This document shows, in pieces, positions 1 to 5,892 of a stretch of 64,000 bases of DNA. The stretch is taken from positions 1 to 64,000 of the forward strand of contig JADGOE010000006.1 in the NCBI GenBank assembly GCA_017883135.1, in the 5' to 3' direction. This stretch comes from Acidimicrobiales bacterium (GTDB taxonomy: Bacteria; Actinomycetota; Acidimicrobiia; Acidimicrobiales; RAAP-2). Under the pieces are notes generated by a model. That model saw only the letters and a program-made list of their open reading frames with translations, did not search any database and had not been told where the DNA came from. How positions within the stretch are numbered: position 1 is the stretch's first letter; each line of letters opens with the position of its first letter. Position numbers and translations under genes: made by a program.

Positions 1-388
1 CCGTACTTCCGTCAACTGTGACCTTCACGAACGTCGGAGCAGGTACAGATTGACCCGAGGGAAGCGTTCCAGTGACCATCGGGTGGCGGCCATCGTGTGT
101 CTTCTGGAATGTCGACACTTCCCCTTGAGACCAGGTCGCATTGGCGATTAGGTAGGTGCCCTTGGTCGATCCGGGGTAGAGGCAGTAGCTCTGGTCGTTC
201 GTCGGAGCCTGCCGCTGCGGACGGTAGCCACTGGCCAGTGCAAAGATCGACGCCGCCTCTGACCTTGACATCAGGGAGCACGCCCTCACCGACTTCGACA
301 GGGTCGCCGTTGTGTTCGATCCGCAGGCCGCCAAGATCCCGATCAAAGCGAATCCCGCCAAGATGCCAATCAGTTTCCGCCGATTCAT
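1..388 (-). CDS. Putative lipoprotein, cut off by the left window edge
   Basis: Reading the minus strand from the ATG at 388 gives an open frame of 129 codons that runs off the window without a stop. The first 22 residues are a lipoprotein signal: MNRRK, a hydrophobic stretch, then a lipobox ending LAAC, so Cys22 would be lipidated and the protein held on the outer face of the membrane. Two more cysteines follow, in a C-S-L-M-S motif (about residue 37) and a Y-C-L-Y motif about 35 residues on. That spacing is reminiscent of DUF3558-type actinobacterial lipoproteins, a weak resemblance only. No clear ribosome-binding site is visible. Base composition is less GC-rich than in the core genes from 1620 onward, consistent with acquired DNA. 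Confidence 0.6.
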   Translation of the reverse strand, partial: MNRRKLIGILAGFALIGILAACGSNTTATLSKSVRACSLMSRSEAASIFALASGYRPQRQAPTNDQSYCLYPGSTKGTYLIANATWSQGEVSTFQKTHDGRHPMVTGTLPSGQSVPAPTFVKVTVDGST

Positions 389-494: not shown

Positions 495-710
495 TCAGGT
501 AATGGTCGATTCGATCTCATCGAGTGTCAGCGGATATGCCGACCCAACTTCTCCGCCCCTGTCGTTGCGCCTATCAGGCTCAACGCACCAATCCAGAAGG
601 GCGACCTGGTCGCCGTCGCAATCGAAGATGTCGTAGAACCCATCCGTACGGGGTTGCAACGTCATGCGGGCAGCTCGGAGGCTTTGTCGTACCTCATCCT
701 CGGTCACCAA
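495..710 (-). CDS. Small acidic hypothetical protein
   Basis: A 71-residue frame starting at TTG 710 (or GTG 707) with a believable acidic composition (VTEDEVRQSL at the start, LTLDEIESTIT at the end). I recognise no family, and there is no signal peptide or membrane segment. Its start abuts the point at which the oppositely oriented recombinase loses similarity to its family, so the two meet at a probable rearrangement junction. No ribosome-binding site is evident. It could be the truncated end of a longer protein or a chance frame. Confidence 0.4.
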   Translation of the reverse strand: MVTEDEVRQSLRAARMTLQPRTDGFYDIFDCDGDQVALLDWCVEPDRRNDRGGEVGSAYPLTLDEIESTIT

Positions 711-1296
711 CAGATTGTGGCTGATTCAACTCGGCCTTGGACTCCGTCCCGGTGAACTGCTGGCGCTTGCATGGGAAGATGTTGTTGGAAGTGACTTGCA
801 CGTCCGTCACAGCCAGCGCCGTGAAGGCGGAGAGCTGCTTCCAAGAGACGTTATGAAGACAGAAGCATCGTTGCGTGTATTGGGAATGCCCAATGCCATC
901 AGAGTGGCACTTGAAGATCGCCGAGCCGGACAAGAAGCGGAACAGGCGGCTGCGGGCGAAGTGTGGGAGAACCCGATGGGTTTGATCTTCACAACGGAGC
1001 GTGGCCTGCCGATGCGTCAGGAGACCTACCGGCGACAGTTCCTCGCACTGCTACGCCGAGCCGGTGTCGATCCAAAGGACGTGACGCCTCATACGTTCCG
1101 ACATACAGCGACATCCCACTTGGTAGATGCCGGAGTCCCGCTCGGAACCATTAGCGACCTACTCGGCCACGTTGATCTGACGATGCTGGTGAAGAACTAT
1201 CGACACAGCACCTCGTCGAAGGTGACCGGGCACGTGGCTGCATTGGACGGTGTCCTAGCTGCCAACAGCGGTCAGGCCCGAAGCGAAAACGAGTAG
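664..1296 (+). pseudogene. Tyrosine recombinase, catalytic domain only (5'-truncated integrase)
   Basis: The frame carries the full catalytic set of a phage-type tyrosine recombinase. There is the first Arg in GLRPGELLAL, the beta-hairpin Lys in VMKTEASL, the H-x-x-R box HTFRHTATSHL, the second His in DLLGH, and the Tyr nucleophile in NYRHSTSS near the C-terminus. Family members are usually 350-400 residues; here the N-terminal arm- and core-binding domains are absent. Similarity starts only at about 712 (RLWLIQLGLG), and the codons before it are antisense to the small ORF at 495-710. The catalytic domain looks intact, but the protein probably cannot bind its att site. The gene points at the broken tRNA 120 bp downstream, the usual integrase-attachment site arrangement. 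Confidence 0.75.
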
Positions 1297-1619
1297 CTAC
1301 CGAAGTAGCAACGCATCGTTGAACACGGTTGACGACATAGGACACCTATGACAAGGAATGGGTCCTGACCAGGTCGTATATGAACGCCAGTGACAACAGT
1401 GGCCAATCGGCGACGGACTGCCAGTCAAGCGCTCTACCAGCTGAGCTACGCCCCCGAAGGCTGGGTCAGGTTATCAGCACGCAACCTTCGGCCCGAATTG
1501 GGCGAACAGCCGGACTGTTGACGGCGAAGACGGGCGAGGGCCCCCGGCGGAGTCTCCATGCGGGCCTGCACTGCCCCCGGGCACGGAGTGTGCTCCGCCC
1601 CCCGGTACGATCGTGATCC
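1297..1619. other. Gap between recombinase and leuS: broken tRNA and leuS promoter
   Basis: This gap holds the half tRNA-Ala (1416-1455). An imperfect inverted repeat (GCCAGTG ... CAGTGGC, 1385-1402) lies on the recombinase side. A TACGAT -10 box at 1606-1611 lies eight bases before the leuS ATG, suggesting a leaderless leuS mRNA. I see no other gene. Confidence 0.5.
1416..1455 (-). tRNA. 5' half of tRNA-Ala(GGC), truncated after the anticodon loop
   Basis: On the minus strand, 1455 to 1416 reads as a canonical tRNA 5' half: 7-nt acceptor strand GGGGGCG, TA, D-arm GCTC-AGCTGGTA-GAGC, G26, anticodon strand CTTGA and loop CTGGCAG with anticodon GGC (alanine, codon GCC). Only the first two bases of the 3' anticodon strand (TC) follow; AAG is expected next but CGT is found. 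No variable region, T-arm (GGTTCGA-type) or 3' acceptor strand appears anywhere between here and 1297. The gene cannot give a functional tRNA as it stands. The break at the anticodon stem, with a recombinase 120 bp away, suggests integration at the anticodon-loop site. Confidence 0.75.
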
Positions 1620-4130
1620 ATGGCACGGGCCTATGAGGTCGTCGAAGTCGAGAAGAAATGGCAGCGGCGCTGGGCCGACGAGGGAACCTATGAGGTGGAT
1701 GCCGACGATCCGCGGCCACCTTGGTACGTGCTCACCATGTATCCGTATCCTTCCGGTCCGGCCCACATGGGGCACGTGCGCAACTACACCTTCGGCGACC
1801 TGTTGGTCCGGCATCGCACCATGCTCGGTCACGCCGTCCTGTCCCCGTTCGGCTTCGACTCGTTCGGGCTTCCGGCCGAAAATGCCGCCATCAAGACGGG
1901 TACTCACCCGCGGATCTTCACCGACGCCCGCATCCTCGAGCTGAAGGAGTCGATCACCTCACTAGGTGCCGTCTACGACTGGCGACGTGAGATCCGCAGT
2001 CACGACCCCGAGTACATCAAGTGGAACCAGGTCATCTTCCAGAAGCTGCTGGCGGCCGGCCTGGCCTATCGGGCCAATGCTCCGGTCAACTGGTGTCCCG
2101 GGTGCCAGACCGTGCTGGCCAACGAGCAGGTGCTGGCCGACGGCACGTGCGAGCGTTCGGGCGACCTGGTGGTAAAGCGCGACCTCGAGCAGTGGTTCTT
2201 CGGGATCACCCGGTACGCCGACGAGCTCCTTTCGGGTCTCGACGACCTCGAGTGGCCCGAGCGGGTCAAGACCATGCAGCGCAACTGGATCGGCCGGTCG
2301 GAAGGTGCCGAGTACGACCTGGTCGTCGAGGGGCGAGACGGCTCGGATGCCGGTGAGCGGCTCTCGCTCCGGGTGTTCACCACCCGGCCGGACACCTCGT
2401 TCGGGATGACCTACGCGGTGGTGGCCCCTGAACACCCGCTGGTCGATGCCCTCACCACTGCGGACCACCTGGACGACGTGGCCGACCTCCGGCTCCGGGC
2501 GGCCGCCAGCACCGAGGTCGAACGGATGTCGGAGAGCGGCGCGGCGAGCTTGGCCAAGCGCGGTGCGTTCACCGGCTCTTCGGTGATCAACCCGTTCACC
2601 GGCCTACCGGTCCCGGTCTATGTGGCCGACTACGTGTTGATGGGGTACGGCACCGGCGCCATCATGGCCGTCCCTGCCGAGGACAACCGTGACTGGGACT
2701 TCGCCCAGGCCTATGGCCTTCCGGTGGTGCGGACCGTCCAGCCACCCGTTGGATGGGACGAGCACGGCGGGCCCGACGGGGGACCGGGGGGTGCCTACAC
2801 CGGCGCCGGCGAGAAGATCAACAGCGAGTGGCTGAACGGCCTCGACATCACCACCGCGAAGGCCCGGGCCATCGAGTGGCTGGAGGCCGAGGGCATCGGC
2901 GAGCGCACGGTGAACTATCGGCTGCGCGATTGGCTGGTGTCGCGCCAACGGTTCTGGGGCTGCCCGATACCGGTCGTCTACTGCCCCGAACACGGCATCG
3001 TCCCGGTGCCGACCGAGGAACTGCCGGTGCTGGCACCCGACGATGTGGAGTTCCAGCCCACCGGCGAGTCCCCCCTGTCCACCAATCTCGAGTTCCTCAA
3101 CACCACCTGTCCGTTGTGCGGAGGTCCGGCCACACGCGAGACGGACACTATGGACACCTTCGTCGACTCGTCCTGGTACTTCCTCCGGTTCACCGACCCG
3201 TGGACGCCAGACCTTCCCTTCGATCCGGAGATCGCCCGCCACTGGATGCCCGTGGACCAGTACATCGGAGGCATCGAGCACGCGATACTCCATCTGCTCT
3301 ACGCACGCTTCTTCACCAAGGCGCTGGTCGATGTCGGCCTGGCCCCCGAGGGGATGCGGGAGCCGTTCGCCCGCCTGTTCACCCAGGGGATGATCAGGAT
3401 GGACGGCAAGAAGATGTCCAAGTCCAAGGGCAACCTCGTGGCGCCGTCGAGCTACCTGACGACCGTCGGGGCCGACGCGCTCCGCCTCTTCCACCTCTTC
3501 GTCGGACCCCCGGCCGACGACGTGGACTGGACCGACCAGACCGACAGTGTGATCGACGGGTGTGGGCGCTTCCTCGATCGAGTGTGGCGCCTGGCAACCA
3601 GCCCGGACGGTGAGCGCCCGCAGGGCCGGACCGGGCCCGCCATGCCCGAAGACCTCGATATCCGCCGGGCCACGCACCGCCTGATCGACCGGGTCAGCCG
3701 CGACTACGAGCGCTGGTCGTACAACACCGCGGTGGCTGCATGCATGGAGTTCGTGAACCTGTTGCACCCCTACGTCCGCGGGGGCGGTCGGCGCGAAGTC
3801 GTCGACGAGGCGGTCGACACCTTGCTGCTGCTGTTGGCCCCGATGACCCCCCATCTGGCGGCCGAGGCGTGGGAGCGGCGCCACGGTGACCACATCCACC
3901 TGCGTGGATGGCCGGTGGCGGATCCGGAGCTGGCCGCAGAGGCGACAGTGACCATGGTCGTCCAGGTCAACGGCAAGGTCCGCGATCGCATCGAGGTGGC
4001 CCCCGATGTCTCCGAGGAGGAGGCCCGGCACCTGGCCCTGGCATCACCCCAGATCATCGAGGCGCTGGCCGGGGCCGAGCCCCGCCGGGTCATCGTGAGA
4101 CCGCCCAAGTTGGTCAACATCGTGCTCTGA
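1620..4130 (+). CDS. leuS: Leucyl-tRNA synthetase
   Basis: Class Ia synthetase that charges tRNA-Leu with leucine in the cytoplasm. The 836-residue length is normal for bacterial LeuRS. The HIGH-type signature appears as PSGPAHMGHVRNYTF near residue 46. The CP1 editing domain follows, with the threonine-rich motif TTRPDTSFGMTY at about 255-266. The KMSKS loop is GKKMSKSKGN near residue 600, followed by the anticodon-binding helical domain and a C-terminal domain ending VNIVL. A TACGAT -10 box eight bases before the ATG, with no Shine-Dalgarno, points to a leaderless transcript. It stands alone, with a convergent oxidoreductase downstream. Confidence 0.97.
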   Translation: MARAYEVVEVEKKWQRRWADEGTYEVDADDPRPPWYVLTMYPYPSGPAHMGHVRNYTFGDLLVRHRTMLGHAVLSPFGFDSFGLPAENAAIKTGTHPRIFTDARILELKESITSLGAVYDWRREIRSHDPEYIKWNQVIFQKLLAAGLAYRANAPVNWCPGCQTVLANEQVLADGTCERSGDLVVKRDLEQWFFGITRYADELLSGLDDLEWPERVKTMQRNWIGRSEGAEYDLVVEGRDGSDAGERLSLRVFTTRPDTSFGMTYAVVAPEHPLVDALTTADHLDDVADLRLRAAASTEVERMSESGAASLAKRGAFTGSSVINPFTGLPVPVYVADYVLMGYGTGAIMAVPAEDNRDWDFAQAYGLPVVRTVQPPVGWDEHGGPDGGPGGAYTGAGEKINSEWLNGLDITTAKARAIEWLEAEGIGERTVNYRLRDWLVSRQRFWGCPIPVVYCPEHGIVPVPTEELPVLAPDDVEFQPTGESPLSTNLEFLNTTCPLCGGPATRETDTMDTFVDSSWYFLRFTDPWTPDLPFDPEIARHWMPVDQYIGGIEHAILHLLYARFFTKALVDVGLAPEGMREPFARLFTQGMIRMDGKKMSKSKGNLVAPSSYLTTVGADALRLFHLFVGPPADDVDWTDQTDSVIDGCGRFLDRVWRLATSPDGERPQGRTGPAMPEDLDIRRATHRLIDRVSRDYERWSYNTAVAACMEFVNLLHPYVRGGGRREVVDEAVDTLLLLLAPMTPHLAAEAWERRHGDHIHLRGWPVADPELAAEATVTMVVQVNGKVRDRIEVAPDVSEEEARHLALASPQIIEALAGAEPRRVIVRPPKLVNIVL

Positions 4131-4189: not shown

Positions 4190-5194
4190 CTACTTGAAGC
4201 CGACTAGGACCTCCGCCCACCGGTCGGCGTCCATCTCATAGGGGGTGTAGAAGTTGAACCGATCGACCAGGCCGCCGAACCTGGCGAGGACGACCCGGGC
4301 GATCTCGTCGAGCTCGCCCACCACGGCGAAGGTGTTGAGCATCTCGTCGTCGATGAGCCCCGCCATCTCGCTCCACGCCCCGCGTTTGGAGAGCGTGTTG
4401 AGCTCGGTCTGGAGATCACCCCAGCCGTGCAGCTCCAACACCGCCCGATAGGCGGGAGTCGAGCCGTAGAAGGCGAGCTGCTTCTTGGTGGCCTGCACGG
4501 CCGCGCCCATACCGGCTTCGTCGGTTCCGGTGACCACGATGCCCGGGTAGGAGATCTCCACGTCGGAGCGGACCCGCCCACTGGTGGCGAGGCCGCGCTT
4601 GAGGGCCGGTACGGTCACCTCGCGCAGGTAGCGCTCCGTGGTGAACCCGTGCGCGATTACCCCGTCGGCCACCTCGCCGGCCACCTCGGTCATCAACTCG
4701 CCGACAGCGGCCAGAAAGATCCTCGGGTTGCCGAAGGGATTGGGTCCGGGGTCGAACATCGGGGTCATCAGGGTGTGCCGGTAGAACTCTCCCCGGAACG
4801 CCAGCCGGCTTCCGTCGGACCAACTTGCCCAAATCGCCCGGATCGCAAGGATCAGCTCGCGCATCCTCGGCGCGGGATGGGACCAGGGCATGGAGAACCG
4901 CTTCTCGATGTGCGGCTTGATCTGGGAGCCGAGCCCCAGCATGAACCGGCCCTCGGAGATGGCCTGGAGGTCATTGGCCATCATGGCCAGGGTCATCGGA
5001 TTGCGGGCGAAGGCCACTGCGATGCCGGTACCCAGTTCGAGCCGCTCGGTGTGCTCGGCGGCCAGCACCAGGGGCAGGAAGGGGTCGTGTCCGGTCTCCG
5101 ACGACCAGATGCCGTCGTAGCCGACCCGTTCGGCGTGACGCGCTGCGTCGACCACGCTGCTCGGATCGAAGCCGATGACCCCGTCGATTTGCAT
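4190..5194 (-). CDS. LLM-class (luciferase-like) F420-dependent oxidoreductase
   Basis: TIM-barrel protein of the bacterial luciferase-like superfamily, resembling the MSMEG_2256-type subgroup (TIGR03617). Members are predicted to use coenzyme F420; substrates are unknown. Seen: the DAARHAERVGYDGIWSSE opening, the LELGTGIAVAFARNPM strand and SEGRFMLGLGSQI loop typical of the family, and FLAAVGELMTEVAGEVADG. I chose the ATG at 5194 (MQIDGVIGFD), which gives 334 residues and starts at the first family-like strand; a longer frame to 5266 adds a non-conserved 24-residue leader. It is convergent with leuS and divergent from the DUF1707 gene. Confidence 0.85.
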   Translation of the reverse strand: MQIDGVIGFDPSSVVDAARHAERVGYDGIWSSETGHDPFLPLVLAAEHTERLELGTGIAVAFARNPMTLAMMANDLQAISEGRFMLGLGSQIKPHIEKRFSMPWSHPAPRMRELILAIRAIWASWSDGSRLAFRGEFYRHTLMTPMFDPGPNPFGNPRIFLAAVGELMTEVAGEVADGVIAHGFTTERYLREVTVPALKRGLATSGRVRSDVEISYPGIVVTGTDEAGMGAAVQATKKQLAFYGSTPAYRAVLELHGWGDLQTELNTLSKRGAWSEMAGLIDDEMLNTFAVVGELDEIARVVLARFGGLVDRFNFYTPYEMDADRWAEVLVGFK

Positions 5195-5271
5195 GAACCA
5201 AGGTATCCCGACGGCCGGGACCGGGGCGCTTCGGAGGACCGATCCAATGAGTAGTTGCGTGGCCACTCTCC

Positions 5272-5892
5272 GTGACCCACAATTGGGGGGTGAGCAGCCA
5301 TCAGAACGGTGCCGTCCGCCGGGCGATCGACCCGGGCGGCTCTCCGCCGGGTGCGGGAGGCCCGCGTCCGATACCCGAATTGCTCGCCTACGCGGAGATC
5401 GCTCCGGTCCCGTCCCTCGATCATCGACCGGGTGACGCCGGTGGTCTACCAGCCGGCGACCGGCCGACCGCTGAGGGACCGGTGACCGACGAGGACCGGA
5501 CGCGCTATGGCGTTCTGCTCGACCGTGCCGCCGAGCGCGGGCTGCTCGCGCCCTACGACTACGAGGTCCGACTTCGAGAGCTGGCTGAGGCGATCACCTT
5601 CGACGAGATGCGGCTGATCGTCACCGAGCTTCCGGTGTTCACCGCGCCCCTCCCGACCACGGGGTCCAAGCGGTCACGGCGACCCGGTTCGCAGGCCGGA
5701 CCGACCGACCGCCCCACCCTGGCCGGCACCGGCAGGCGCCGTACCGGCACCTGGGTGGTGCTGGCGGTACTGGTCCTCGTGCTGGTGGTATCGACGGTAT
5801 TCCTGTCGATCTACGTCGAGCACCTGGCGCGTGCCCACCACAGCGGCCTCCGGGCGCCTGGCGCCCCCGGCCTCAGTGCCCTTCGCCTTTGA
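5272..5892 (+). CDS. DUF1707-domain membrane-anchored protein
   Basis: A 206-residue protein starting at GTG 5272 (GTG 5290, after a G-run, is an alternative). Residues 1-70 are Pro/Gly-rich and probably disordered. Residues about 76-121 (RYGVLLDRAAERGLLAPYDY onward, ending VTELP) match the helical DUF1707/SHOCT-like module common in actinobacterial membrane proteins. After a basic linker, residues 161-181 form one transmembrane helix (WVVLAVLVLVLVVSTVFLSI), leaving a short tail. Function is unknown; such proteins usually pair the module with membrane segments. Its last 20 bases overlap the convergent PAC2 gene. Confidence 0.75.
   Translation: MTHNWGVSSHQNGAVRRAIDPGGSPPGAGGPRPIPELLAYAEIAPVPSLDHRPGDAGGLPAGDRPTAEGPVTDEDRTRYGVLLDRAAERGLLAPYDYEVRLRELAEAITFDEMRLIVTELPVFTAPLPTTGSKRSRRPGSQAGPTDRPTLAGTGRRRTGTWVVLAVLVLVLVVSTVFLSIYVEHLARAHHSGLRAPGAPGLSALRL

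Follow-up and report, generated by a model that had tools for sequence, protein, structure and literature searches.

A pair of integration junctions at the anticodon loops of tRNA-Ala(GGC) and tRNA-Pro(GGG) in an uncultured Acidimicrobiales genome fits tRNA-disrupting integration

Near the start of the analysed window, a stretch of 64,000 nucleotides starting at the first base of contig C92, the 5' half of an alanine tRNA gene breaks off at its anticodon loop and faces a recombinase gene. The locus raises the question of whether this cut is a genuine integration junction and, if so, where the cell obtains the tRNA. The genome to which it belongs is represented by 126 contigs, with an estimated completeness of 98%.

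The reverse complement of positions 1416-1455, GGGGGCGTAGCTCAGCTGGTAGAGCGCTTGACTGGCAGTC, corresponds to tRNA-Ala(GGC) from G1 to C40 and ends in T39-C40, its anticodon loop occupying positions 1418-1424. Many relatives have intact tRNA-Ala(GGC) genes that contain these 40 bases without a mismatch (40/40) and continue with AAGAGGTTCG and the remainder of a normal 3' half, in agreement with the preliminary description of the sequence as a tRNA-Ala(GGC) 5' half cut at the anticodon loop. No complete tRNA was detected anywhere in the window using ARAGORN and Rfam. The conserved host neighbour leuS (1620-4130, forward strand) fixes the identity of the locus: in most relatives checked, tRNA-Ala(GGC) is divergent from leuS at a distance of about 90-360 bp, the distance here being 164 bp, and this synteny identifies 1416-1455 as the ordinary tRNA-Ala(GGC) locus. 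An ORF at 4190-5266 on the reverse strand presumably encodes a luciferase-like oxidoreductase, possibly F420-dependent. A self-splicing intron or split-gene RNA was also considered and rejected, as the window has no Rfam match and no visible intron-like feature, and the integrase is encoded on the opposite strand.

Within the family, the tRNA-Ala(GGC)/leuS locus (L042-L070 and L112-L118) is an integration hotspot, in which the leuS side is conserved and the flank opposite leuS differs in nearly every genome; the contigs of several relatives stop 14-250 bp beyond the tRNA. A search for the contig carrying the tRNA-Ala 3' flank, based on the flank of one relative, returned no match, this being the flank that varies among nearly all of them.

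The sequence on the other side of the cut (positions 1-1415) has a GC content of 58.4%, compared with 68.9% on the host side. The ORF at 664-1296 (forward strand) encodes a tyrosine recombinase (PF00589, E = 2.6e-21; matching phrog_1) reduced to its catalytic domain: in alignments with integrases that are 37-43% identical, homology begins only at about position 715, the conserved catalytic motifs are present, and the N-terminal half is missing. The ORF points at the tRNA cut and ends 119 bp from it, which bears out the recombinase aimed at the cut from about 120 bp away in less GC-rich DNA. Positions 1297-1415, from the integrase stop to the core, form the attachment arm, in which GAGTAGCTACCGAAGTAGC and CATAGG repeats are candidate arm-type integrase sites. 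The truncated integrase is abutted by a small ORF of 70 amino acids with a GTG start (495-707, reverse strand), for which no family was found. The remaining element DNA contains the 5' part of a predicted lipoprotein gene (1-388, reverse strand), cut by the contig end, with a weak match to phrog_8870 (E = 0.0017) and none in a Pfam search. No plasmid or phage record matched the 1415 element bases, and no close phage relative of the partial integrase was found, the best reaching 36%. Since the integrase lacks its N-terminal half, the element is probably a remnant, unless the truncation is an assembly effect; if it is not, the element can no longer move unaided.

A search with the window junction revealed a second junction in the same genome, on contig C2 (L033, about 5554-5594, forward strand). 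Here about 480 bp of homologous element DNA is joined to GGGCTGTGGCGCAGCTTGGTTAGCGCGCTTGACTGGGGGT, the 5' half of tRNA-Pro(GGG), and this tRNA is cut at the same anticodon-loop base as tRNA-Ala(GGC). The C-terminus of the C2 integrase shows 60% protein identity to that of C92. Between cut and integrase end, a gap-free alignment of the two elements spans 140/140 bp at about 72-74% identity, with divergence greatest over the 40 bp nearest the core. In the assembled pieces of the two elements (1415 and about 480 bp), no phage structural gene was seen. An initial suggestion that the C2 integrase is dead, based on the replacement of the box II histidine by methionine, was dropped, since this position varies among H, R, Y, N and M in relatives.

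Different tRNAs, a single cut position and homologous ends are, as far as sequence comparison goes, the pattern predicted by site-specific recombination and not by an assembly accident. It could be argued that the junctions come from minor-strain or chimeric metagenome contigs and that most cells are intact at both places, given that each element contig stops a short way past the cut, that both integrases are partial, and that the locus is a strain-variable hotspot at which the contigs of relatives often end. However, chance joining is not expected to place homologous ends on two separate contigs at the same base of different tRNAs, and a minor strain would still leave the non-restoring junctions real; this explanation is regarded as improbable. 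The C2 copy likewise largely excludes the assembly join that had been listed among the possible origins of the locus, and it strengthens the proposal of an integration junction with the tRNA unrestored on the integrase side.

On the integrase side of both elements, identity to the tRNA ends 1-2 bases past the anticodon loop. Comparison of the C92 and C2 junctions leads us to infer a core, CTGGCAGTC (1416-1424, reverse strand), comprising the anticodon loop plus T39 and C40, with CTGGGGGT as its equivalent in C2. Recombination would then leave the loop plus one or two bases, as read from the integrase side, the far ends being unassembled. The 11-bp 'symmetric' sequence GACTGGCAGTC (1416-1426) had been put forward as a candidate crossover core, but it is the anticodon arm of the tRNA itself and is present in every relative. 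The overall interpretation of the preliminary description is thus supported for the junction and for non-restoration on the integrase side, and fails for the palindrome as an element-specific mark of crossover. Its options also included a gene split across the element, a reading that turns on DNA beyond the first base of the contig, but not replacement by an element-borne tRNA.

The nearest integrases (37-43% identical to that of C92) were sought in the order and family. They adjoin, in the same orientation, tRNA-Pro(GGG) in genome G389 and tRNA-Val(GAC) in G056 and G184, and the one in G527 adjoins a tRNA-Ala(GGC) 3' half. The distance from stop codon to core is 122 bp in C92 and 149 bp in C2, compared with 134-154 bp for these sister integrases, and TAGCTnCC-like repeats just past the stop, candidate arm sites, are common to C92, C2, G389 and G056. 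The two elements therefore resemble the ordinary anticodon-loop islands of G389, G056 and G184 in integrase relationship, orientation, spacing to the core and class of tRNA target, and those of G389 and G056 also in the repeats. They differ in the sequence next to the core. At all four sister loci, the core is flanked by 36-37 bases of tRNA 3' half, able to rebuild the gene, whereas the corresponding bases match the 3' half at only 10/34 positions in C92 and 10/37 in C2, values equalled by shuffled sequence in 40% and 48% of trials, respectively. By this comparison, no tRNA 3' half is found on the element side of either junction. Given the sister-like layout and the missing 3' half, the C92/C2 integrase branch is best described, at the sequence level, as the usual architecture minus its tRNA-restoring part.

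The locus in G527 (L158, contig C522), where the integrase is followed by the tRNA-Ala(GGC) 3' half without a 5' half, has the look of a free attP or a far end. Neither a free attP nor a whole element was recovered from IMG/VR, plasmids or phages by exact pattern matching or by similarity searching. Viral integrases found by profile are 25-48% identical, and no non-restoring Ala or Pro site was present among those examined.

The main rival to a non-restoring integration is that an element-borne 5' half rebuilds tRNA-Ala(GGC) at the far end, in the order 5' half - CTGGCAGTCAAG - host 3' half, so that the visible 5' half is a displaced fragment. Islands leaving a 5' tDNA fragment make up about 4% (159/3919) of those catalogued by Islander (PMC4383910), and it is the 5' half that serves the archaeal pTN3-like integrases (PMC8371274); a rebuilt tRNA would account for how the cell remains viable, and neither 5' half has departed from a perfect sequence. 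The present elements share with both systems the host-side 5' tRNA fragment and the anticodon-centred crossover. In those systems, however, an intact tRNA stands at the far end, while here the far end is unassembled and the assembly contains no intact tRNA-Ala(GGC) or tRNA-Pro(GGG). Moreover, in the closest integrases the 3' half lies on the integrase side, and far-end rebuilding would therefore require a reorganised attachment site. It is considered the less likely of the two readings, with a minor but appreciable probability.

One candidate far end for the C2 element, a tRNA-Pro 3' half on contig C59 (L113, 10265-10312, reverse strand), was rejected. In its favour, C2 and C59 flank tRNA-Pro by synteny in G017 and G018. 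Other genomes of the genus, however, have an intact tRNA-Pro and, about 0.5-1.7 kb downstream of it, a copy of the 3' half, which counts against C59 as the far end. The C59 side of the 3' half has host-like GC. Its inner side contains GTGGTCACAGGATGGTCACAAGCG, a 24-bp motif that also occurs in the G013 island of a different integrase and probably represents an arm-type integrase site, and has no 9-mers in common with the C92 and C2 arms. The tRNA-Pro(GGG) 3' half on C59 more likely terminates a separate, ordinary island within this hotspot.

As for the tRNA complement of the genome, two pattern searches covering the whole assembly did not find the tRNA-Ala 3' half, and neither an intact GGC alanine tRNA nor any intact tRNA-Pro(GGG) was found in the 98%-complete assembly. 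No element-borne cognate tRNA was detected, either in the element portions that are assembled (1415 bp and about 480 bp) or in any other part of the assembly. A near-full match to the tRNA-Ala 5' half is also missing from 4 of the 13 other genomes of the genus, so that absence from a draft genome is weak evidence. The assembly does contain tRNA-Ala(TGC), tRNA-Pro(TGG) and tRNA-Pro(CGG), and it might be supposed that the GGC and GGG genes, not found here, are truly lost, that these three tRNAs decode everything, and that the 5' halves are decaying relics. Against this, GCC accounts for 65% of alanine codons and CCC for 42% of proline codons in the four genes counted, most genomes of the family keep the GGC gene, and neither 5' half shows any decay. 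Both tRNAs should, from this codon usage, matter to the cell; true loss is considered very improbable, and a tolerated loss of the tRNA-Ala, one of the options raised earlier, unlikely. As lasting loss would be costly, a working copy of each tRNA most likely resides in unassembled DNA.

The assembly also contains four tRNA 3'-half relics: L194 (C10, 1550-1604), L195 (C66, 578-649), L196 (C95, 7375-7447) and L197 (C117, 3966-3987). They are read as tRNA-Thr(CGT), Gly(GCC), Gly-like and Met/Ile(CAT) types, respectively, and start near the anticodon loop; for the Thr(CGT), Gly(GCC) and Met/Ile(CAT) types, in contrast to Ala(GGC) and Pro(GGG), intact tRNAs of the same anticodons are present in the assembly. 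From these relics, ordinary restoring islands appear to be common in this genome. A further candidate, C34:1025, examined as a tRNA-Ala 3' end, was rejected as a 3' fragment of tmRNA (L190, 1022-1094, reverse strand; RF00023, E = 1e-6). This fragment probably marks where a tmRNA-gene island has its displaced end, and the reading frame beside it looks transposase-like.

The best reading, to which we assign a probability of roughly 0.55, is non-restoring integration of two related elements, compensated by element-borne cognate tRNAs. The elements would be prophages or islands, at least partly decayed, whose tyrosine integrases targeted the anticodon loop in two single-copy genes, those for tRNA-Ala(GGC) in the window and tRNA-Pro(GGG) on C2. 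On the integrase side, as the sequence shows, the host 5' half is joined to element DNA lacking a tRNA 3' half, so that no tRNA is rebuilt there, in contrast to the closest related integrases. The element-borne tRNA and a short outer core are inferred parts of the model. For these tRNAs the cell probably relies on a replacement that each element either encodes or has rebuilt at its far end, and the host would then be unable to lose the element, even once the integrase decays. The second junction, the spacing shared with the sister integrases, the missing intact tRNAs, the codon usage and the published precedent (PMC10865867) together make this model somewhat better than an even bet. More speculatively, and with less than even confidence, an integrase family in uncultured high-GC bacteria may have dropped tRNA reconstruction and may disrupt tRNAs for major codons (Ala-GGC and Pro-GGG), twice in one chromosome, the element-borne tRNAs being the only copies in the cell and fixing the elements in place after integrase decay.

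The precedent is tRNA-dependent lysogeny, described in 2024 in the actinobacteriophages Fionnbharth, LeBron, Gaia, BrutonGaster and Mollymur, in which integration through a core of 8-17 bp does not reconstruct the tRNA and the phage supplies the cognate one; sister integrases with and without reconstruction are known, and the reported targets are Lys-TTT, Ile2-CAT and Leu-CAA (PMC10865867). A similar tRNA replacement has been reported in Sinorhizobium prophages (PMC11476347). The present elements are alike in having a tyrosine integrase, an attB at the anticodon loop, what is probably a short core, sister integrases that rebuild the tRNA, and a tRNA that is not rebuilt at the junction examined, here the integrase side of both elements. 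They differ in their targets, Ala-GGC and Pro-GGG, and in coming from an uncultured genome and not a phage; they are known here from their integrase-side ends alone, without an element-borne tRNA or a far end. The junction in the window is thus, on its sequence, real, somewhat unusual and one of a pair, and it fits tRNA-disrupting integration of this recently described kind.

If confirmed, these findings would carry the replacement of tRNAs by mobile elements beyond cultured actinobacteriophages: it would also occur in an uncultured lineage, affect tRNAs that decode very common codons, and have taken place twice in one genome. The arrangement itself, an integrase flanked by a tRNA 5' half that lacks the 3' half, provides a simple signature by which such elements may be recognised in metagenomes. 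Confirmation would also open the question of how integrases gain and lose tRNA reconstruction, and of how mobile elements become indispensable to their hosts.
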